From Terriglobales bacterium (GTDB taxonomy: Bacteria; Acidobacteriota; Terriglobia; Bryobacterales; Bryobacteraceae), in NCBI GenBank assembly GCA_027485675.1, contig JAIXQP010000041.1:62001-126000 (forward strand): a stretch of DNA of 64,000 nucleotides, read 5' to 3'. Positions 1,540-10,226 of this stretch are shown here, piece after piece. The stretch's first letter is position 1, and every line of letters begins with the position of its first letter. The notes under the pieces are model-generated. The model saw only the letters and a program-made list of their open reading frames with translations. It was not told where the DNA came from and did not search any database. The translations under genes and the position numbers were made by a program.

Positions 1540-2937
1540 ATGTTGCTCTCCAGTTCCACCTACTTCCTCTTCCTCGCGGCCCTCTTCTTCCTCTATTGGC
1601 CGCTATCGCGCTGGCGTGCCGCCGGTCTGGCCATTCTCCTGTTCGCCAACTACTTCTTCTACGCCAAGTGGGATCTCTTCTACCTCTTCCTGATCCCGCT
1701 GGCCTCCTCCTGCGATTTCGCCATCGGCCTCGGCCTCGCCCGCTTCCAAAGCCCCGCCGGCCGGAAGCTGCTCGTCACTCTCAGCCTCCTCCTCAACCTC
1801 GGCCTCCTGACGGCTTTCAAATACATGCCGTTCCTTTTTGAGAACTACGGCCGGCTCGCCGGTGTTCCCCCGCCCACCTGGCACTGGACCTTCCCCCTCG
1901 GCATCTCTTTCTACGCATTCCAGTCGCTCACCTACACCCTCGATCTCTACCGCCGCGACGCCAAACCCACCCGCTCCCTCCTCGCCCACCTCACCGCCAC
2001 TTCCTTTTTCCCCACCATCCTCGCCGGACCCATCACCCGCGTCCCCGACCTCCTCAAACAGTTCGAGCGCCCCAATAAACAGCTCGACGCCGCCGACGGC
2101 AGCCGCGCCCTCTTCCTCATTGGCCTCGGCCTGCTGAAAAAACTCCTCATCGCCGACTACCTCGCCGAAAACCTCGTCAACCGCGTCTTCGATTTCCCCG
2201 GCCTCTACTCCTCCGCCGAAGTCCTCATCGGCGTCTACGCCTACGCCCTCCAGCTCTACTACGACTTCTCCGGCTACACCGACGTCGCCATCGGCTCGGC
2301 GCTCCTGCTCGGCATCAAGCTCCCCCAGAACTTCAACATGCCCTACGCTGCCGCCAACATCAACGATTTCTGGCGCCGCTGGCATATCTCCCTGTCGAAC
2401 TGGCTCCGCGACTATCTCTTCTTCTCCCTCCCCGGCAAACGCAACGCCGTGATGCCGTATATCAACCTCATCATCACTATGACCCTCGGTGGCCTCTGGC
2501 ACGGCGCCAGTTGGAACTTTGTCATCTGGGGCGTCCTCCACGGCGTCGCTCAGGCCATCGCCCGCGGTTGGCAATCCTGGCGCGGCCCCAAGGCGACCCC
2601 CTGGACCCCCGCCTGGTTCCGCACCTTCTGGACCGTCCAGTTTGTCTGTTTCGCCTGGATCTTCTTCCGCGCTACGAACTTCGAACAGGCCCTCAAGATC
2701 CTTGAGCAGTTCGGCGAACTCTCCTACGCCACCACCAACGTCTCCGGCCCGCTTTGGGTCGTGCTGGCCATCGCCCTTGCTGGTCACTATCTCCCCAAGG
2801 TGCCGTTTGAAAAGCTCCGCGAAGGCTTCGTGCGCTCTCCATTTTTCGTGCAGGCGGCCATATTGATGGCCTTGATCATCGCCATTCAATACATTGCCGC
2901 GACAGGGGCCGCTCCGTTTATCTACACTAACTTTTAA
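1540..2937 (+). CDS. MBOAT family membrane-bound O-acyltransferase (AlgI/DltB-like)
   Basis: A 465-residue multi-pass membrane protein that would move an acyl group from a carrier on the cytoplasmic side to an acceptor on or across the membrane. The start is set at ATG 1540 because MLLSSSTYFLFLAALFFLYW is the standard family opening; the frame is open to 1471, but that extension is not hydrophobic and runs over a terminator-like hairpin. The invariant family histidine is H321 in GGLWHGASWNF, and the second conserved histidine is H282 in FWRRWHISLSNWLRDY. Two SGNH genes, an acyl carrier protein and a KSIII-like gene follow with gaps of 3-5 bases or overlaps, which makes an operon very likely. 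The acyl group and acceptor are unknown. Confidence 0.93.
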   Translation: MLLSSSTYFLFLAALFFLYWPLSRWRAAGLAILLFANYFFYAKWDLFYLFLIPLASSCDFAIGLGLARFQSPAGRKLLVTLSLLLNLGLLTAFKYMPFLFENYGRLAGVPPPTWHWTFPLGISFYAFQSLTYTLDLYRRDAKPTRSLLAHLTATSFFPTILAGPITRVPDLLKQFERPNKQLDAADGSRALFLIGLGLLKKLLIADYLAENLVNRVFDFPGLYSSAEVLIGVYAYALQLYYDFSGYTDVAIGSALLLGIKLPQNFNMPYAAANINDFWRRWHISLSNWLRDYLFFSLPGKRNAVMPYINLIITMTLGGLWHGASWNFVIWGVLHGVAQAIARGWQSWRGPKATPWTPAWFRTFWTVQFVCFAWIFFRATNFEQALKILEQFGELSYATTNVSGPLWVVLAIALAGHYLPKVPFEKLREGFVRSPFFVQAAILMALIIAIQYIAATGAAPFIYTNF

Positions 2938-2940
2938 GCA

Positions 2941-4326
2941 GTGCCCCTTCCCCGCAAAGTCTCCCTTACTCTCGCCACCATCGGGCTGATGATTACGGCC
3001 CCCGACCTGATTCCCGCCTTCAAGGACTATCACGTCTTTGACTGGCGATCCGTCGCCACCGTCGTCGATTTCCAACCCCGCGTCCGCAGCGCCAACCCGG
3101 TCGAAGAGGAGCAGCAGCGCCTCAAACCCGTCATCTCCGTCGAAAAGACGCCCGTTCAGCCCCTGGTCGACCCCAAAGGCGCCCTCGAACCCCTCTACGC
3201 CGCCCTCTTCGCGACCGAACGAAAAGAACCCGGCGCCATCACCCGCATCCTCCACTACGGCGACTCCCCCACCACCGCCGACCTCATCACCGCCGACGTC
3301 CGCTCCCTCTTTCAAAAGGACTTCGGCGACGCCGGCCATGGCTTCGCGCTCGTCGCCAAGCCCTGGGCCTGGTATGCCCACCGTGGCCTCGAAATCAAAG
3401 GCTCCGGCTGGAAGATCGAACCCGCCAACACGGCCGAACTCAAGGATGGCTTCTACGGCCTCGGCGCCGTCTCCTTCCGCGGCGGCGCCGGCGCTCAGTC
3501 CCGCATCGTGCTCAAAGACCCCACCCATTCGGAGGTCGAAGTCTCCTTCCTCTCGCAGCCCGGCGGCGGATCGTTTGGCGTCTTTGCCGACGACAATCCC
3601 CTGGAGATCGTCGAAACCGAATCGCCCGTCGTCACCCCGTCGTTCAAAAAGCTCAAGCTCCCCGCCGGCGCCCGCGAAATCCGTATCGCCAACGTCAACG
3701 GCAAAGTCCGGCTCTATGGCCTCCGCTTCGCCAAGGATACGGCCGGCGTCGAATATAACTCTCTCGGCGTCAACGGCGCCTATATCTCCATCCTCGCCCG
3801 CATGGTCGACGAACAGCATTGGGGCGAGCAGCTGCAGCACCATCGCCCCCATCTCGTCATCATCAATTACGGCACCAACGAAAGCGTCTACGCCAAGTTC
3901 GTCGATACCGCCTTTGAACGCGAACTCCTCCGCACCATCTCCCGCGTGAAAAAGGCCGTCCCCCAGGCCGCCATTCTCATCATGTCGCCCATGGACCGCG
4001 GCCAGAAGATGGACGACGGCACCATCGGCACCGTCCCCGCCCTCTCCCGCCTGGTCGCGATTGAACAGCGCGTCGCCGCCGAACAGGGCTGCGCCTTCTT
4101 CAATACGTTTGAAGCCATGGGCGGCCCCGGCACCATGGGCCGCTGGTATCAGACGGAGCCCCGCCTCGTCGGCGCCGACTTCATCCACCCCATGCCCAAC
4201 GGCGCCCGCATCGTTGGCAACCTCTTGTACAAGTCCCTCCAGGAAGGCTACCGCCGCCACAAGCTCCGCATCGCCAAGGAGAAGTTTGCGACAATTAGGG
4301 AGTCCAATCCCACCCCGGCGAACTGA
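2941..4326 (+). CDS. SGNH/GDSL-type hydrolase or acyltransferase, membrane-anchored, first copy
   Basis: A 461-residue protein with a GTG start three bases after the MBOAT stop. An N-terminal hydrophobic segment (about residues 8-23) suggests export or anchoring, with the catalytic domain outside the cytoplasm. SGNH signatures are intact: Ser109 in HYGDSPTT, Asn313 in NYGTNES, and Asp413/His416 in DFIHP. Proteins of this fold next to MBOAT genes commonly complete transfer of acyl groups to cell-surface polysaccharide (AlgJ/AlgX, PatB and DltD-like logic). The next gene has the same layout, with Asp and His at the same residue numbers, so the two look like a duplicated pair. The substrate is unknown. 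Confidence 0.87.
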   Translation: MPLPRKVSLTLATIGLMITAPDLIPAFKDYHVFDWRSVATVVDFQPRVRSANPVEEEQQRLKPVISVEKTPVQPLVDPKGALEPLYAALFATERKEPGAITRILHYGDSPTTADLITADVRSLFQKDFGDAGHGFALVAKPWAWYAHRGLEIKGSGWKIEPANTAELKDGFYGLGAVSFRGGAGAQSRIVLKDPTHSEVEVSFLSQPGGGSFGVFADDNPLEIVETESPVVTPSFKKLKLPAGAREIRIANVNGKVRLYGLRFAKDTAGVEYNSLGVNGAYISILARMVDEQHWGEQLQHHRPHLVIINYGTNESVYAKFVDTAFERELLRTISRVKKAVPQAAILIMSPMDRGQKMDDGTIGTVPALSRLVAIEQRVAAEQGCAFFNTFEAMGGPGTMGRWYQTEPRLVGADFIHPMPNGARIVGNLLYKSLQEGYRRHKLRIAKEKFATIRESNPTPAN

Positions 4327-4330
4327 ACCT

Positions 4331-5755
4331 TTGAATCGAATTCTTGTTGCCGCTGCCCTGATCTTTGCGTTGTTGGGAAGCGTGTCTTTGGGCGCTCCGG
4401 CCAAAAGAAAACCCGCCGTCAAAAAGAAAACGACCACTATAAAGCGCCCCGCCCGCACGGTCGCCAAGAAGTCTTCCCGCCGTCGGCCCGTCGTGGCGAA
4501 GGCCCCGCCCGTTACGCCGCACGTGCGCCAGGCCGCCAACACCGCCGTCTCGGAATGGCTCAACCAGCCCGGCACGATCGAAAATCCCGCCGCCCTCGTC
4601 CCGTTCCTCGAACAGCTCTACCGCCTCGAAAGCGGAACCAGCAAAGACGTGCTCCGCGTCCTTCACTACGGCGACTCCCATACCGCCTCCGACGACTGGT
4701 CGGGCACCACCCGTTATCTCCTCCAGGCCCGCTTCGGCGATGGCGGCCCCGGCTTCACTCACGCTGGCCGCCCCTACCTTGGCTACCGCCGTCTCGACGT
4801 CAAATCCTGGTCCACCAACGCCTGGTACACCGACGGTCTCGTCGGCCGCGACGGCGACGGCATGTATGGGCTCTCGGGCATCTCCATGTCCACCAAGCGC
4901 GTCGGCGAATCCGTCACGCTCCAAGCCGATTGCGCCTCCGCTGAACTGCATTTCCTCCGCCAGCCTCTCGGCGGGCTCGTCGAAATCTCCGACAACGGCA
5001 TCGTCATCGATACCATCTCCACCGCCGGCGAACCCGGCGCGGGCGTCTATCCCCTTCGCCTCCAACCCGGCACGCACCAACTCGCCGCCCGCACCCGCGG
5101 CGGCGGCCAGGTGCGCCTCTTCGGCTGGGTCACCGAAAACGGGCGCGGCCTCACCTACGACATGCTCGGCATGAACGGCGCCCAGGCCAATATCGGCCTG
5201 AAATGGGAAGAAACCGTCCTTGCCGACTACTACCGCCGCCGCCCCCCGGGTCTCATCATCCTCGCCTATGGCACCAACGAAGCCCGAAACAAAGATTGGA
5301 CGCATGAATCCTACCGTGACATGTTCGTCCAACTCCTCGCCCGCTTCCGCCGCCTCGCTCCCACCGCCTCCATCCTCGTCATCGGCCCCCCCGATCACTT
5401 CTACCGCTACTCCACCGGCATGGCCTCCCATCAGAAAATCGACCTCATCCTCGAAGCCCAGCGCGAGGCTGCCCACGCCAGTGGCGTCGCCTTCTGGGAT
5501 CTCCGCGAGCGTATGGGCGGCAAAGGCGCCATGGGCCGTTGGGTAGCCGCCGGCATGGCGCAGGGCGACTACGTGCATTTTACGGGCGAAGGCTACCGTC
5601 TTCTGGGCGCGGCATTGTATAAGGAATTGATGGGTCAATACGCAACCTATGTTAGGGTGCGGAATGAGGCCCGCCCGGCCCAAACGGCCCACGACTCAAC
5701 CGCTCTTCCCACCGCAGCGAAAATCATCAATGGACAAACGAACGAAAATCAATGA
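4331..5755 (+). CDS. SGNH/GDSL-type hydrolase or acyltransferase, second copy, with basic linker
   Basis: A 474-residue exported SGNH protein. I place the start at TTG 4331, which gives the signal peptide NRILVAAALIFALLGSVSLG; the frame is open further upstream but lies inside the previous gene. After the signal comes a Lys/Arg/Pro-rich stretch of about 40 residues, which might bind acidic polymer or peptidoglycan. The catalytic motifs are Ser116 in HYGDSHTA, Asn316 in YGTNEAR, and Asp413/His416 in DYVH. It is a diverged paralogue of the gene just upstream. Its last 26 bases overlap the acyl carrier protein gene. The start codon is the least certain part. Confidence 0.85.
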   Translation: MNRILVAAALIFALLGSVSLGAPAKRKPAVKKKTTTIKRPARTVAKKSSRRRPVVAKAPPVTPHVRQAANTAVSEWLNQPGTIENPAALVPFLEQLYRLESGTSKDVLRVLHYGDSHTASDDWSGTTRYLLQARFGDGGPGFTHAGRPYLGYRRLDVKSWSTNAWYTDGLVGRDGDGMYGLSGISMSTKRVGESVTLQADCASAELHFLRQPLGGLVEISDNGIVIDTISTAGEPGAGVYPLRLQPGTHQLAARTRGGGQVRLFGWVTENGRGLTYDMLGMNGAQANIGLKWEETVLADYYRRRPPGLIILAYGTNEARNKDWTHESYRDMFVQLLARFRRLAPTASILVIGPPDHFYRYSTGMASHQKIDLILEAQREAAHASGVAFWDLRERMGGKGAMGRWVAAGMAQGDYVHFTGEGYRLLGAALYKELMGQYATYVRVRNEARPAQTAHDSTALPTAAKIINGQTNENQ

Positions 5756-5966
5756 GATCCTGAACGGGATCGCCGGGAAACCCATCTCCCCCGCCGAAGA
5801 CGAGTCCCTCTTCGACTCCGGACTCCTTGACTCGTTCGCCTTGGCCGACCTCGTTTCCGCCCTCGAAAAGGCCTTCGAACTCAAAATTCCGGATGCCGAT
5901 CTGAACCCCCGCAAGTTCGACTCCATCGAACGCATTGAGTCCTATCTCGAAGCCCACGGGAAATAA
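5730..5966 (+). CDS. Acyl carrier protein, stand-alone and dedicated
   Basis: A 78-residue acyl or peptidyl carrier protein. Ser35 in LLDSFALADLV is the expected 4'-phosphopantetheine attachment site, flanked by the usual DESLFDSGLLDS helix start; the C-terminal half (FELKIPDADLNPRKFDS) also fits a carrier domain. The ATG at 5730 lies inside the end of the preceding SGNH gene, suggesting coupled translation. The gene is not beside general fatty-acid synthesis genes but between an SGNH gene and a KSIII-like gene, which suggests it serves this cassette the way DltC serves DltB. No phosphopantetheinyl transferase is in the window. Confidence 0.9.
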   Translation: MDKRTKINEILNGIAGKPISPAEDESLFDSGLLDSFALADLVSALEKAFELKIPDADLNPRKFDSIERIESYLEAHGK

Positions 5967-5971
5967 CCTCT

Positions 5972-6898
5972 TTGCCTTTCCTCCGCGAATTTGCCGCCTA
6001 CCTCCCGGAGCGTGTCGTCTCCAACGCCGAAATCGGCTCGCAAGTCGGCTGTGACGCCGAATGGATCAAGAACGTCAGTGGCATTGAGCAACGCCGCTTC
6101 GCCGCCGAGAACGAAACCGTTACCGATCTCGCCGTCCGCGCCGCCGAAGCCTGCCTGGCCAAGGCCAGAATCTCCGCCTCCGCCCTCGGCATGATCATGA
6201 TCGCCAGCGGCAGCTCGGAACGTCAGTTCCCCGGACCCGCCGCCACCGTCGCTCACCGCCTCGGTCTCGATAGCACCCCGGCCCTCGACGTCCCCATGGC
6301 CAGCGCCGGCACCCTATACGCCATGGCCCTCGCCTCCCGCCTCTGCGACAACCTCGGCGAAATCCTCGTCGTCGGCGCGGAAAAGATGTCCACCGTCGTC
6401 CTCCGTCCCCCCATGGAACGTGGGGTCGCCATCCTCTTCGGCGATGGCGCCGGCGCCTGTCTCGTCAGCCCCACCGAAGGCAAAGCCCGTGTCCTCGGCA
6501 GCGCCCTCCATACCGACGGCGCCTTCGCCGAAGACCTCAAGCTCGGGTTCGACCGGCCTCTTGAAATGAACGGACGCTCGGTGATTCTCCAAGCCTCCCG
6601 CAAAGTGCCCCGCGCCATCAGCGAACTCCTCGACCGTCACGGCCGCAAAGCCGCCGACATCGGCACGTTCCTGATGCACCAGGCCAACCAGAACCTCATC
6701 GACCGCATCGCCCAGGCTCTCGAGGTTCCCGCCGAGCGCTTCTATTCGAACATCGCCCGCTACGGCAACACCAGCTCCGCCAGCATGCTCATCGCCGCGG
6801 CCGAATGGTCCGAGTCCGGTTGGCCCGCCGGTCAGTCCGTCTGCTTCACCGCCTTCGGCGCCGGCTTCCACTGGGGCGCCCTCCTGGCCGAAGCCTAA
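5972..6898 (+). CDS. KSIII (FabH-like) thiolase-fold protein with Ser in place of catalytic Cys
   Basis: A 308-residue protein of the 3-oxoacyl-ACP synthase III fold, starting at TTG 5972, five bases after the carrier protein stop. Of the FabH triad, His236 (LMHQANQN) and Asn266 (YGNTSSAS) are present, but the nucleophile position reads PMASAGTLY, with Ser111 where FabH has Cys in an ACAGF-type motif; the codon is AGC at 6302-6304. KSIII relatives with Ser, such as DpsC, can still form acyl-enzyme and act as starter-unit enzymes or acyltransferases, so the protein need not be dead. Placed directly after a dedicated carrier protein, it may load or acylate that carrier. Alternatives are a decarboxylase-type or inactive partner. 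Confidence 0.88.
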   Translation: MPFLREFAAYLPERVVSNAEIGSQVGCDAEWIKNVSGIEQRRFAAENETVTDLAVRAAEACLAKARISASALGMIMIASGSSERQFPGPAATVAHRLGLDSTPALDVPMASAGTLYAMALASRLCDNLGEILVVGAEKMSTVVLRPPMERGVAILFGDGAGACLVSPTEGKARVLGSALHTDGAFAEDLKLGFDRPLEMNGRSVILQASRKVPRAISELLDRHGRKAADIGTFLMHQANQNLIDRIAQALEVPAERFYSNIARYGNTSSASMLIAAAEWSESGWPAGQSVCFTAFGAGFHWGALLAEA

Positions 6899-6974: not shown

Positions 6975-8555
6975 ATGCTCCTCCTCCTTGCCTTGGCCGA
7001 GGTCCTCTTCTGGGGAACCGAGATCCAACTCCCCGGCCAACTCACCCACACCGTCCGCCTGCAGCTCAACACGCCGGCCGATGTCGCCCGGTACGGTGTC
7101 GTCACCGTGCCCTACTCCCCCACTCGCGGCCAAACCCTCCTCGGCCTCCGCGCCGCCACCGTCCTCCCTAACGGCCACCGCCTCCCCGTCCCCGCCGAAG
7201 CCATCTTTGACACCGCCGTCGTCAAACGCGGCGACCACGAACAGCGCACCCTCTCCTGGGCCTTCTCCGCGCTCGAGCCCGGCGCCGTCGTCGAATACGA
7301 ATACACCGAATGCCACGCCGACGGCTTGCCGCTCCCGCTCCGCCTTCCCCTCCAGCGCGAGCTGCCCGTCCGCTCCCGCGAAGTCACCGTCCCCGCCGGT
7401 CTCCTCGCGCACTATCGCAACTGCCAGAACTGCCGAACCCATCTCCCCGCCTACCGCGAAGAGCCGGACGCCCCCGCCGGCGGCCTCGCCATCGTCGAAA
7501 TCACCCTCCCGCCCGAAACCACCTGGTCCGCCCTCGCCGCCGAACTCGCCGCCCGCTTTGAGGCGGAACTCGCCTCCGCCCCCGTCGCCGCCCCTGGCGA
7601 TCTCGAAACCCTCGCCGAACTCTGCCGCACCCGTATCCAAAACGTCCTCTACCGCACCGATAACCTCACCCTCCGCGGCGCCCCCGAACCCAATCCCACC
7701 CCCGCCGACACCTGGCGCCGCGGCTACGGCACCCCCCACGAAATCAACCTCCTCTTCGCCGCCCTCGCCCGCGCCGCCGGCCACCAGGTCTTCTACGCCC
7801 AAGTCGTCAACCGTCCCGATCTCCCGGACCCCTCCCAACTGCAAAGCGAACTCATCGCCGTCCGCCAGCCCCACGGCTACGCCTTCTTCAATCCCGGCGT
7901 CCCCTACCTCAGCGCCGGCCTCCTCGACTTCGACGAAGAGGGCCGCACCGCTCTCGTCGCCACCCCCGCCGGACCCGAATTCGTCACCCTGCCCCGTTCC
8001 TCCACCTGCCAGAACCGCACCGAACGCACCGCCCACCTGCTGGCCCAGCCCGATGGCAGCGTCCACGGCGCCATCACCCTCACCTATTCTGGCCACGCCG
8101 CCGCCCTGCGCAAACGCCGGGCCGAGCGCCAATCCCCCGCCGAACGCCTCGCCGCCCTCCGCCAGGAGTTCCCCGGCGCCCTCATTGAAAACGTGGAGAT
8201 CGAAAATTTGGCCCTTCCCGCCGCTCCCGTCCGCATAAGGTTTCAAGTCACCGTCTCGGATTATGCTGACCGTTCTCCTCGCCGCCTGTTTTTCCCCGGC
8301 CGCTTCTTCGCCCGGTTTGCCTCGACGCGCTACCCCGCGGCCGGACGAACCCAGCCCGTCGAGTTCCCCTTCGCCTTCTCCGTTCACGATACGGTCACCC
8401 TGGTGGCACCCTCCGGCCATCAACGCGTCTTCCACCGCGGCCTCGAGCAGGAGCGCCTGCGCTATTCCCCCGCGGAATTTCCGGAGTTGTACCAGAAATG
8501 GGTCACTTTTGAGGACGCCGGGCGAGAAGTTTTCCTCATGGAGCGACTTCCCTAA
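6975..8555 (+). CDS. Transglutaminase-like protein lacking the catalytic triad, probably exported
   Basis: A 526-residue protein with a short hydrophobic N-terminus (MLLLLALAEVLFW) that may be a signal sequence or anchor. The architecture matches the next gene: an N-terminal beta-rich DUF3857-like part (about residues 20-190) and a transglutaminase-like middle. The active-site region is recognisable but degenerate: where the sister has GYGDCKDKA this one has GYGTPHEIN, so the Cys position is Pro254, and the His and Asp positions are also changed (QSELIAV, FFNPG). A binding or regulatory role is therefore more likely than catalysis. It ends directly against the GTG of its sister. It starts 76 bases after the KSIII gene and could belong to the same transcript. 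Confidence 0.82.
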   Translation: MLLLLALAEVLFWGTEIQLPGQLTHTVRLQLNTPADVARYGVVTVPYSPTRGQTLLGLRAATVLPNGHRLPVPAEAIFDTAVVKRGDHEQRTLSWAFSALEPGAVVEYEYTECHADGLPLPLRLPLQRELPVRSREVTVPAGLLAHYRNCQNCRTHLPAYREEPDAPAGGLAIVEITLPPETTWSALAAELAARFEAELASAPVAAPGDLETLAELCRTRIQNVLYRTDNLTLRGAPEPNPTPADTWRRGYGTPHEINLLFAALARAAGHQVFYAQVVNRPDLPDPSQLQSELIAVRQPHGYAFFNPGVPYLSAGLLDFDEEGRTALVATPAGPEFVTLPRSSTCQNRTERTAHLLAQPDGSVHGAITLTYSGHAAALRKRRAERQSPAERLAALRQEFPGALIENVEIENLALPAAPVRIRFQVTVSDYADRSPRRLFFPGRFFARFASTRYPAAGRTQPVEFPFAFSVHDTVTLVAPSGHQRVFHRGLEQERLRYSPAEFPELYQKWVTFEDAGREVFLMERLP

Positions 8556-10226
8556 GTGCTTGCTCTCTTACTGCTTACCAGCTGGTTCCAGGAGGTGGCG
8601 TCCGCGGCCTCTCCCATGGGCGCCGACGCCCACGTCCTGCTACGGGAAGAGTCTGTGATCATGGACCAGACCGGCCGCCAGACCATCACCACCCGGGGCG
8701 TCGTGCGCATCCTCACCCCCGCCGGCGCTCACCACGCCCGCGCCGGAGTCGCCTACGATAGCGCCGCCGGCCAACTCCTCGAATTTCGCGCCTGGGTGCA
8801 GGCCCCCGGTGGCGAAGCCGACGAAATCGACCCCCAGGAGTTCGTCGATCGCCCTCTCGCGCCCGCCGAACTCCACTCCCCGCTCCGCCAACGGCAAATC
8901 GAAGCCAACGCCCCTCCCGGCAGCGTCTTCTTCTACCAGTCCACCGTTGTCGCCCCAGCCGCCTTCCCCCAGGTCGAGTTCGAGTTCCAGGAAAGCGAAC
9001 TCCCGGTGCACCTCAGCCGTTTCCGCCTCTCCGCTCCGGCCGGCTGGGAGGTCCAAGCTATCTCCTTCGGCTCCTCGCCCCACCGCGCCGGTAACACCTG
9101 GGAACTGCGCCAACTGCCCGCCCGCCCCGCCCAACTCCCCCGCCTCGCGCTCACCCTCCTGCCGAACCAGCCGGCCCTCCCGCGCTTCGCCACCTGGTCC
9201 GACGTGGCCGGCTGGCTCGCCACCCGCTCAGACGCCGCCGCCCAACCCACCCCGCCCGTCATCGCGCAAGCCGAAAGCCTCACCGCCGGTCTCACCACCC
9301 CGCAACAGCGCATCCAGGCCCTCGCCGCCTACGTCCAAGGCCTCCGCTACGTCGCCATCAATCAAAACCTGGGGCAGGGAGGCGGCTTCACCCCGGCGCC
9401 CGCCGCCACGGTCCTCTCGCGCGGCTATGGCGATTGCAAGGACAAAGCCACCCTCCTCCGCGCCCTCCTCCGCGCCGTCAACATCAACTCCTGGCTCGTT
9501 GCCACAAACTCCTCGGACCGCGCCCGTGTCCGTCCCGAATGGCCCTCCCCCCGCGTCTTCAACCACGCCATCATCGCCATCGAGGCCCCCTCCGGCCTGC
9601 TCTACTTCGATCCCTCCGACCCCCATCACGCCCTCGGCGGCCTTCCCCCTGCCCTGCAAGGCGCTCCGGCGCTTTTCCTGCGGTCCGGCGCCAGCCTCGC
9701 CATGACCCCGGAACAAGCCGGCGCCATCGAACGCCAAATCACCCTCCGCCTCGAACACGACGGCCGCGTCTCCGGCAAAATCCTCGAAACCGCTCACGGC
9801 TCCGCCGCCGCTGCCACCCGTGCCCTCGTCGCCGCGGAAATGTATGACAGCTATCTAAGTTCCCGCCTGGGAATTCAAGTTACTCAGTTGAAAATACAGG
9901 ACTCCTTCCCGGAGGATGGCCTACATATGTATGTGGAGTATGAGCAAGCGGCTCCCGTAGCCACTGCCGGGCCCCTGCATGTCTGGAAGCCCCTGCTCCC
10001 CTGGCTGGAGTTGCCGGGCCCCGTCGCCGTCAACGAAACCGTCACCATCGAGCTCCATCCCCGCTGGATTGTTGAGGAAATGCCGGAACCCGTGCAGTCC
10101 GCCAGCTTCTCCGGTGCTTGGTTTCTCGAGGACGGCAAGTTGATCATCAACCGCCAGCTCCGTCCTTCGTCCGCTGGGGTGATTCCCGTGGAGCGCCTTC
10201 CCATCGTGTTACGCCAGGAACGTTGA
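8556..10226 (+). CDS. DUF3857 / transglutaminase-like cysteine peptidase-fold protein, catalytic residues intact
   Basis: A 556-residue exported protein that begins with GTG immediately after the preceding stop; residues 1-18 form a signal peptide (LALLLLTSWFQEVASA). The N-terminal half is DUF3857-like and beta-rich, followed by a transglutaminase-core domain with Cys294 in GYGDCKDKATLL, His337 in FNHAIIAI and Asp352 in YFDPSDP, the expected triad. A C-terminal beta-rich part closes the protein. Such proteins are common in Acidobacteriota and Bacteroidota, with roles that are mostly unproven (protein crosslinking, proteolysis or amide hydrolysis). Pairing with a triad-less sister suggests a two-component complex. 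Confidence 0.87.
   Translation: MLALLLLTSWFQEVASAASPMGADAHVLLREESVIMDQTGRQTITTRGVVRILTPAGAHHARAGVAYDSAAGQLLEFRAWVQAPGGEADEIDPQEFVDRPLAPAELHSPLRQRQIEANAPPGSVFFYQSTVVAPAAFPQVEFEFQESELPVHLSRFRLSAPAGWEVQAISFGSSPHRAGNTWELRQLPARPAQLPRLALTLLPNQPALPRFATWSDVAGWLATRSDAAAQPTPPVIAQAESLTAGLTTPQQRIQALAAYVQGLRYVAINQNLGQGGGFTPAPAATVLSRGYGDCKDKATLLRALLRAVNINSWLVATNSSDRARVRPEWPSPRVFNHAIIAIEAPSGLLYFDPSDPHHALGGLPPALQGAPALFLRSGASLAMTPEQAGAIERQITLRLEHDGRVSGKILETAHGSAAAATRALVAAEMYDSYLSSRLGIQVTQLKIQDSFPEDGLHMYVEYEQAAPVATAGPLHVWKPLLPWLELPGPVAVNETVTIELHPRWIVEEMPEPVQSASFSGAWFLEDGKLIINRQLRPSSAGVIPVERLPIVLRQER

Follow-up and report, generated by a model that had tools for sequence, protein, structure and literature searches.

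Two described systems stand closest to the locus reported here. In one of them, the MBOAT protein PatA uses acetyl-coenzyme A (acetyl-CoA) as the donor, and the tyrosine of its FxYxxF motif is described as being auto-acetylated before the acetyl group is handed to an SGNH partner (PMC12148441). In the other, the Dlt system, the same motif sits on DltX, and the MBOAT/SGNH pathways other than Dlt are said to be carrier-free, because acyl-CoA is used (PMC12148441). The present locus lies in a stretch of 64,000 nucleotides (hereafter, the window) from a soil bacterium, Terriglobales bacterium of the Acidobacteriota (GenBank assembly GCA_027485675.1, contig JAIXQP010000041.1, positions 62,001 to 126,000 of the forward strand). 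It is a cassette of five genes between window positions 1540 and 6898, which encode an MBOAT protein, two SGNH proteins (SGNH1 and SGNH2), an acyl carrier protein (ACP) and a protein resembling beta-ketoacyl-ACP synthase III (KSIII).

As in the PatA/PatB/Ape1 cluster for peptidoglycan O-acetylation in Gram-negative bacteria (PMC12148441, PMC6174289), an MBOAT protein with a fused FxYxxF motif and conserved His is followed by two SGNH genes, and the models of both cassette SGNH proteins show the Ape1 fold with its carbohydrate-binding insert. Unlike PatA, which uses acetyl-CoA and no carrier, the cassette unit includes an ACP and a KSIII, a module that suggests a donor other than acetyl-CoA; furthermore, no PatB-type SGNH was recognised in the cassette, SGNH1 and SGNH2 both being of Ape1 type. 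The likeness to Dlt lies in the carrier, which is closest to DltC, in the MBOAT protein, which is closest to DltB among solved structures, and in a presumed flow from carrier to MBOAT to SGNH. In contrast to Dlt, no DltA was detected above the cut-off, the SGNH proteins are not DltD-like, and the MBOAT protein carries the shuttle motif itself instead of leaving it to a separate DltX, no search aimed at a separate DltX gene having been made. DltA above the cut-off, a DltD-type SGNH and a motif separate from the MBOAT protein are all missing, and no PatB type is present. The best reading of the locus is a hybrid, in which a PatA/Ape-like export arm would be fed by a DltC-like carrier. The fused motif and a carrier gene are thus combined in one cassette. 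The parts are familiar, and the loading enzyme that would feed MBOAT/SGNH export is unusual; in agreement with the original prediction, no description of this five-gene combination was found in the open-access literature, a scope outside which most subscription journals lie.

Conservation and co-inheritance of the five genes

The five tightly packed genes were all present on the + strand where the original prediction had placed them, with gaps of 3, 4, -26 and 5 bases between successive genes, and the Pfam and NCBIfam content of the five genes confirmed that no adenylation domain is encoded in the cassette. The catalytic residues that it had named for all five proteins were correct and conserved in the orthologue alignments. 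A search for the five-gene order across the Acidobacteriota had been set beforehand as a check, and the order MBOAT-SGNH1-SGNH2-ACP-KSIII was conserved in 14 of 23 named loci. These loci originated from a KSIII scan of named genomes over the best 80 of 576 relatives, in which 23 were distinct at 45-88% identity and the next was at 35%; two of them (L097 and L098) also belong to genomes of the phylum sample, and L098 is the cassette of Granulicella rosea DSM 18704. Six further loci are on contigs that end before any MBOAT gene becomes visible, and the other three show ACP-KSIII only. Packing was looser in two of the 14 five-gene loci, with gaps of 56-448 bases in L097 and one gap of 619 bases in L082 according to our own start calls. 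The ratio of nonsynonymous to synonymous substitution rates (dN/dS) of the five genes against the nearest relative, L080, was 0.09-0.25. The five cassette genes are real, under purifying selection and conserved in Acidobacteriota.

The KSIII scan of 297 phylum genomes gave a match at 1e-40 in 112, of which ten stood apart at <1e-70, the others being at 1.3e-50 or weaker. In this sample, the MBOAT, SGNH1, SGNH2 and ACP genes were close to the KSIII gene in several arrangements. SGNH1 was present in 12 of the 297 genomes, and all 12 also carried the ACP and a KSIII of the clade defined below (Ser-type in nine, a Cys-type member of the same clade in G063, G075 and G291). The class sample comprised 399 genomes, with presence called at E <= 1e-60 for KSIII and for SGNH1. 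KSIII was detected in 81 genomes, SGNH1 in 81 and both in 78 (Fisher p 3e-75, the genomes being related and hence not independent). In 53 of the 78, the two genes were collinear, with KSIII downstream of SGNH1 within 4.5 kb; in the other 25, they lay on different contigs (19), at 31-169 kb on one contig (3), or near each other but rearranged or more widely spaced (3). Among the matches listed, all ten genomes of the same genus carried both.

Two genomes of the same family (G187 and G289) have MBOAT-SGNH1-SGNH2 and ACP-KSIII on separate contigs, each flanked by other genes. In the genomes behind ten named loci, SGNH1 was found in seven, including G298, where it is in two pieces at contig ends, and was absent from G301; a count of nine was rejected, since the matches in G302 and G303 are the SGNH2 already in the locus. 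The negative-control genomes G007 and G036 gave no SGNH1 match. Four ACP-KSIII loci had no SGNH gene in view (L087, L089, L090 and L102), and all four genomes carry MBOAT-SGNH1 on another contig; therefore, such orphan pairs were rejected as evidence against one unit. The ACP-KSIII pair is inherited together with the MBOAT-SGNH genes even when unlinked. One locus, L092 (G306), is titled Verrucomicrobia bacterium Tous-C9LFEB. It was rejected as a verrucomicrobial member and its title looks wrong, because its KSIII nests among those of Acidobacteriaceae and the matches of G306 fall at the same contig places as those of the window's phylum.

Five genomes had KSIII without SGNH1: one of the phylum sample (G100), three of the class sample (G571, G584 and G668) and G301, the genome of L101. 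In all of them but G301, the ACP-KSIII pair lies at <=3.4 kb from a different MBOAT gene, whose product is 39-41% identical to that of the window; in G668, this gene directly follows the pair on the same strand. In G301, the ACP gene stands at a contig end, 0.25 kb from another MBOAT gene (34%), and a different contig begins with the KSIII gene. Since the ACP is near a different MBOAT in all five, the ACP-KSIII pair acts like a module that supplies MBOATs with their donor. Pfam recognised nothing in the proteins adjoining these other MBOATs in G668 and G584, and in G100 it gave a GDSL match below the threshold. In G100, the pair and the other MBOAT gene are clustered with a CBS-nucleotidyltransferase gene and with genes that, by eye, resemble those of nonulosonic acid synthesis (L036, 7869-18871), which hints that the acceptor in this lineage may be a glycan different from peptidoglycan. 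In G187, the pair stands beside genes resembling, also by eye, fliW, csrA and flagellin (L032, 4255-9930).

The MBOAT protein and the two SGNH proteins

The MBOAT gene (1540-2937, + strand) encodes a putative acyl-exporting protein of 465 amino acids, with a DltB-like core and a PatA-like C-terminal extension. Its start at 1540 is backed by the orthologues, and a longer frame from 1471 is a possible alternative. The protein matched the Pfam family MBOAT (PF03062) with 95 bits, above the cut-off, and the NCBIfam DltB model TIGR04091 with 174.5 bits, below the cut-off of 375; DltB structures were the only matches of its profile in the PDB at E 0.001. H282 and H321 were invariant in 17 of 17 orthologues. 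The C-terminal hexapeptide FIYTNF (2917-2934, + strand) is an FxYxxF acyl-shuttle motif with Tyr462 as the presumed acceptor, and F[ILV]YxxF was found at the C-terminus of all 22 MBOAT orthologues. The fourth residue of the motif is non-aromatic in 21 of the 22 cassette MBOATs (FIYTNF, FVYGKF; F in L039) and F or Y in each of the 10 further MBOATs seen in these genomes (FIYFQF, FLYYFF), as compared over window positions 2917-2934 and loci L036, L045-L047, L050, L052, L180-L182 and L188. This difference is a possible mark of the MBOAT protein's partner.

SGNH1 (2941-4326, + strand, GTG start) is a candidate terminal O-acyltransferase, and SGNH2 (4331-5755, + strand, TTG start) is a candidate O-acyl esterase or second transferase. 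Both matched Pfam Lipase_GDSL_2 above the cut-off, with 51.5 and 50.4 bits, respectively, and their catalytic residues were invariant (S109/N313/D413/H416 of SGNH1 in 21 of 21 sequences, S116/N316/D413/H416 of SGNH2 in 20 of 20). Profiles compared with the sequence of the peptidoglycan O-acetylesterase PDB 4k3u gave 115 bits for SGNH1 and 191.7 bits for SGNH2. The AlphaFold2 models, with mean confidence (pLDDT) of 87.5 for SGNH1 and 85.0 for SGNH2, matched 4k3u in Foldseek with E 4.5e-30 and 3.5e-29, respectively, over 359-371 columns, and the template modelling (TM) scores by target were 0.84-0.87 for two 4k3u chains. The top fold matches of both models were peptidoglycan O-acetylesterases, namely 4k3u and Campylobacter jejuni Ape1 (8gkd and 8gld), and the alignment of both with 4k3u takes in the inserted beta-rich region. 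As judged from these models, both proteins are full-length relatives of Ape1, including the carbohydrate-binding insert, a domain that is proposed to be CBM35-like (PMC6174289). Homology of SGNH1 or SGNH2 to DltD or PatB was rejected, as both profile and fold searches gave Ape1 first and no DltD was listed. The DltD analogy drawn in the original prediction was accordingly not supported for either protein, both of which match Ape1 over the whole chain instead.

The glycines of the block II region aligned with 4k3u were invariant in SGNH1 and SGNH2. In the PatB-type transferase SGNH, this Gly is described as replaced (PMC12148441). The block II Gly was not used as proof of esterase activity, because Staphylococcus aureus OatA is reported to retain it, yet is a transferase (PMC9487903). 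SGNH1 has a predicted N-terminal helix at residues 5-23, which is probably a membrane anchor. As a guess, SGNH1 might be the transferase, since it is more distant from Ape1 and has this helix. The N-terminus of SGNH2 (window 4331-4540) contains a linker rich in Lys, Arg, Ala and Pro after a signal-like helix, as in several close orthologues, and perhaps serves anionic polymer binding. By analogy, peptidoglycan would be the likeliest acceptor, because the models of SGNH1 and SGNH2 share the Ape1 fold and its CBM35-like insert. A further likeness is found in alginate O-acetylation (AlgI, AlgJ and AlgX), where two SGNH-like proteins are described as having different roles in one pathway (PMC4148444). 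AlgJ and AlgX were not among the listed fold matches of the SGNH models, and alginate O-acetylation is not known to involve an ACP or a KSIII.

The carrier and the KSIII-like protein

The ACP gene (5730-5966, + strand) encodes 78 amino acids with Ser35 as the predicted phosphopantetheine site (codon 5832-5834), and the product matched Pfam PP-binding with 35.5 bits, above the cut-off. Its best NCBIfam match was DltC (NF003464; 38.8 bits, below the cut-off of 68), its best two PDB matches were D-alanyl carrier proteins, and D34-S35 was conserved in 11 of 11 orthologues. In the window's genome, the gene of the general fatty-acid ACP is found at another place, next to a FabF-like gene (L053, 15743-15979 and 16031-17296, which we take by eye to be AcpP and FabF). 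The cassette ACP was therefore rejected as the general AcpP, and the doubt raised in the original prediction, namely that the carrier might be the general fatty-acid ACP, was not borne out. DltA (TIGR01734) was found above the curated cut-off in none of 13 genomes with the system and in 2 of 14 control genomes. Sub-threshold matches to TIGR01734 occurred in all 13 system genomes, many of them in long frames resembling nonribosomal peptide synthetases (NRPS). With none above the cut-off in these 13 genomes, a DltA encoded elsewhere in the genome was rejected, and the predicted unit of a DltC-like carrier, MBOAT, SGNH arm and KSIII, with no DltA above the cut-off, is conserved.

The KSIII-like protein (5972-6898, + strand, TTG start) is a candidate carrier-loading enzyme with Ser111 (codon 6302-6304). 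It matched Pfam ACP_syn_III_C (84.9 bits) and ACP_syn_III (58.8 bits) above the cut-offs. The NCBIfam model for beta-ketoacyl-ACP synthase 3 (NF006829) gave 255.3 bits, above the cut-off of 249, and the FabH model TIGR00747 gave 221.9 bits, below the cut-off of 292.1. S111, H236 and N266 were conserved in nine of nine orthologues. Residues were then tabulated for the Ser-type (31) and Cys-type (3) members and for 77 further KSIII sequences, from which contig duplicates (L097, L098, L012, L013, L014 and L016) had been removed. In Escherichia coli FabH numbering, S112, H244, N247 and N274 were present in 31 of 31 Ser-type members, and position 112 was Cys in all 77 of the further sequences, as it was in the 3 members of a sister clade. 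A quick tree of 69 sequences placed the 34 cassette-type KSIII sequences on one side of a branch with an approximate likelihood ratio support (SH-aLRT) of 99, and this clade splits into the Ser-type (SH-aLRT 99) and the Cys-type (96). On this sequence evidence, the protein is a member of a separate clade whose catalytic Cys has been replaced by Ser, His and Asn being kept; a small sister clade keeps Cys.

Three other positions set the clade apart. Arg36 was absent from all 34 members, but 70 of the 77 sequences outside the clade have R there. Lys214 gives way to Leu or Met, and Arg249 to Asn, each in 33 of the 34; outside the clade, 72 of 77 have K or R at position 214 and 76 of 77 have R at position 249. 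We take Arg36 to be a CoA contact in FabH, and Lys214 and Arg249 to form the AcpP docking patch. Since the Cys-type members share these changes, the changes follow the clade and not the nucleophile, and they probably also follow the clade's partner. The position of Phe87 is F in 24 of 31 Ser-type members. A functional precedent for a Ser-type KSIII is DpsC, a priming enzyme with a Ser-His-Asp triad that is described as acylating itself and then transferring the group to its ACP (PMC12664062). The cassette protein resembles it in having a KSIII fold with Ser for Cys, and differs in having Ser-His-Asn at the FabH positions and in its context of envelope acylation in place of polyketide priming. 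No DpsC-named molecule was found among the 60 of 119 KSIII structure matches listed. The protein is thus a KSIII by family, and by its triad neither a FabH nor a DpsC. Delivery of the acyl group to the carrier by KSIII is plausible.

Downstream of the cassette, on the same strand, are genes for two DUF3857 proteins (window 6975-10226), the second of which has a transglutaminase core; tblastn gave no match to them adjoining the cassette in the 23 named loci. The window's genome also contains a large apparent NRPS/polyketide synthase locus (G000, contig C7, 81648-123121), with frames of 6152 and 6739 amino acids and many carrier domains.

Proposed acylation route and competing explanations

On balance, and with reserve, we favour the explanation that the cassette encodes a carrier-dependent system for O-acylation of the cell envelope, running from KSIII to ACP, MBOAT, SGNH and a glycan. 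In the cytoplasm, KSIII would take a short acyl group onto Ser111, or handle it via the His-Asn pair, and then load it onto the phosphopantetheine of the dedicated ACP. From there, the MBOAT protein would bring the group to the periplasmic side and onto Tyr462 in its C-terminal FIYTNF motif, from which Ser109 of SGNH1 would receive it and pass it to a hydroxyl of the glycan, most likely peptidoglycan. SGNH2 would be a second transferase or an esterase that removes the acyl group. From the sequences we infer the relay from MBOAT via Tyr to SGNH and, more weakly, the role of KSIII as a transacylase, the identity of the acyl group, peptidoglycan as the acceptor and the choice of the transferase SGNH. 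The flow from KSIII through carrier, MBOAT and SGNH to the surface had been proposed in the original prediction; its order fits, but the SGNH proteins are of Ape1 type instead of DltD and the MBOAT protein has a fused PatA-type motif.

Several observations weigh against this route. Among the three Cys-type KSIII proteins, two are encoded within such a cluster, and the genome of the third has one on a contig different from that of the KSIII gene; Cys is kept there, and therefore Ser is not required. The loss of Arg36, if it is a CoA contact, would weaken the case for an acyl-CoA donor. The His and Asn of KSIII are FabH-like, unlike the triad of DpsC. Phe87 is described as an acetyl-favouring cap in E. 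coli FabH, yet equal caps yield different specificities (PMC12664062), and therefore this residue does not fix the acyl size. Ape1 itself acts as an esterase, and since the block II Gly is retained in SGNH1 as well as in SGNH2, the sequence is silent on which of them transfers. Some of the 19 different-contig pairs may be assembly breaks. No conserved neighbour genes pointing to a polymer were seen by eye in 15 loci, in which no family search was made. Lastly, three class genomes (G659, G858 and G837) have the export arm without a cassette-type KSIII; in G659 and G858, MBOAT-SGNH1-SGNH2 has no ACP-KSIII pair nearby, and in G837 the arm is broken in SGNH2 by a contig end. Their best KSIII matches are Cys-type and FabH-like with Arg at position 249, and the three genomes are drafts with completeness of 98%, 89% and 91%, respectively.

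A different chemistry for KSIII has to be weighed against these data. The enzyme could be truly condensing and assemble on the ACP a beta-ketoacyl group, or a hydroxyacyl group once this is reduced, for export by the MBOAT protein. We consider this unlikely; the equivalents of His244 and Asn274 in 31 of 31 members and the Cys of the sister clade agree with it, but the change from Cys to Ser is fixed in all 31, Pfam revealed no ketoreductase in the cassette, and no conserved neighbour was seen by eye. Precedents for a condensing role exist in surface glycans, as a dedicated KSIII and ACP belong to the pathway that provides modified viosamine with its 3-hydroxybutanoyl group (PMC3927599), and KS genes and an ACP, among the wfp genes of Flavobacterium psychrophilum, are proposed for the 3,5-dihydroxyhexanoyl group of an O-polysaccharide (PMC6519341). 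These VioS and wfp systems likewise reserve a KS and an ACP for glycan acylation; unlike the cassette with its MBOAT-SGNH export route, they are described as involving a ketoreductase and transfer of the acyl group to a nucleotide sugar by an N-acyltransferase (PMC3927599, PMC6519341). A somewhat less probable role is that of a malonyl-ACP decarboxylase, whose acetyl-ACP product would be used by the MBOAT protein for ordinary O-acetylation. The intact His-Asn pair, which we take to be the decarboxylating part of FabH, and the loss of the Cys nucleophile are consistent with this role. The position, however, is not varied but Ser in all 31 members, which suggests that the Ser is used, and it is Cys in the sister clade.

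The remaining alternatives concern the unit itself. It is improbable that MBOAT and SGNH form a PatA/Ape-like set using acetyl-CoA while ACP-KSIII serves another pathway, such as lipid or polyketide synthesis. The Ape1 fold of both SGNH models, the described use of acetyl-CoA by PatA (PMC12148441), the unlinked ACP-KSIII of some genomes and the three genomes with an export arm and no cassette-type KSIII are in line with such a division; on the other side stand the co-occurrence in 78 of 81 and 81 genomes, 25 of them non-collinear, and the location of the ACP near a different MBOAT in the five KSIII genomes without SGNH1. Least credible is a divergent Dlt system for the attachment of D-alanine or a different amino acid, its adenylating enzyme being encoded elsewhere. 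It would explain why the ACP and the MBOAT protein best match DltC and DltB in NCBIfam and the PDB, and all 13 genomes have sub-threshold adenylation-domain matches, but it is contradicted by the absence of DltA above the cut-off from these genomes (0/13), the shuttle motif fused to the MBOAT protein and the Ape1-like SGNH proteins.

Beyond the carrier-dependent O-acylation system that we favour, a bolder version is conceivable, although we regard it as rather doubtful as a whole. In it, a KSIII lineage would have turned into a dedicated loader, charging a carrier of its own via Ser transacylation, ACP-KSIII would be an interchangeable donor module for MBOATs, and the product would be a group other than plain acetyl on diderm peptidoglycan. 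This would constitute a third feed for envelope acylation, beside acyl-CoA and the DltA-charged carrier.

In summary, the view that non-Dlt MBOAT/SGNH pathways lack a carrier, as given in PMC12148441, appears too narrow. A conserved unit of carrier and KSIII in 81 of 399 class genomes would widen the carrier-free MBOAT/SGNH model and would offer a testable case of a condensing-enzyme fold turned carrier loader. It also leads to the prediction that the cell envelope of Acidobacteriota carries an O-acyl modification, for which it supplies the candidate genes.

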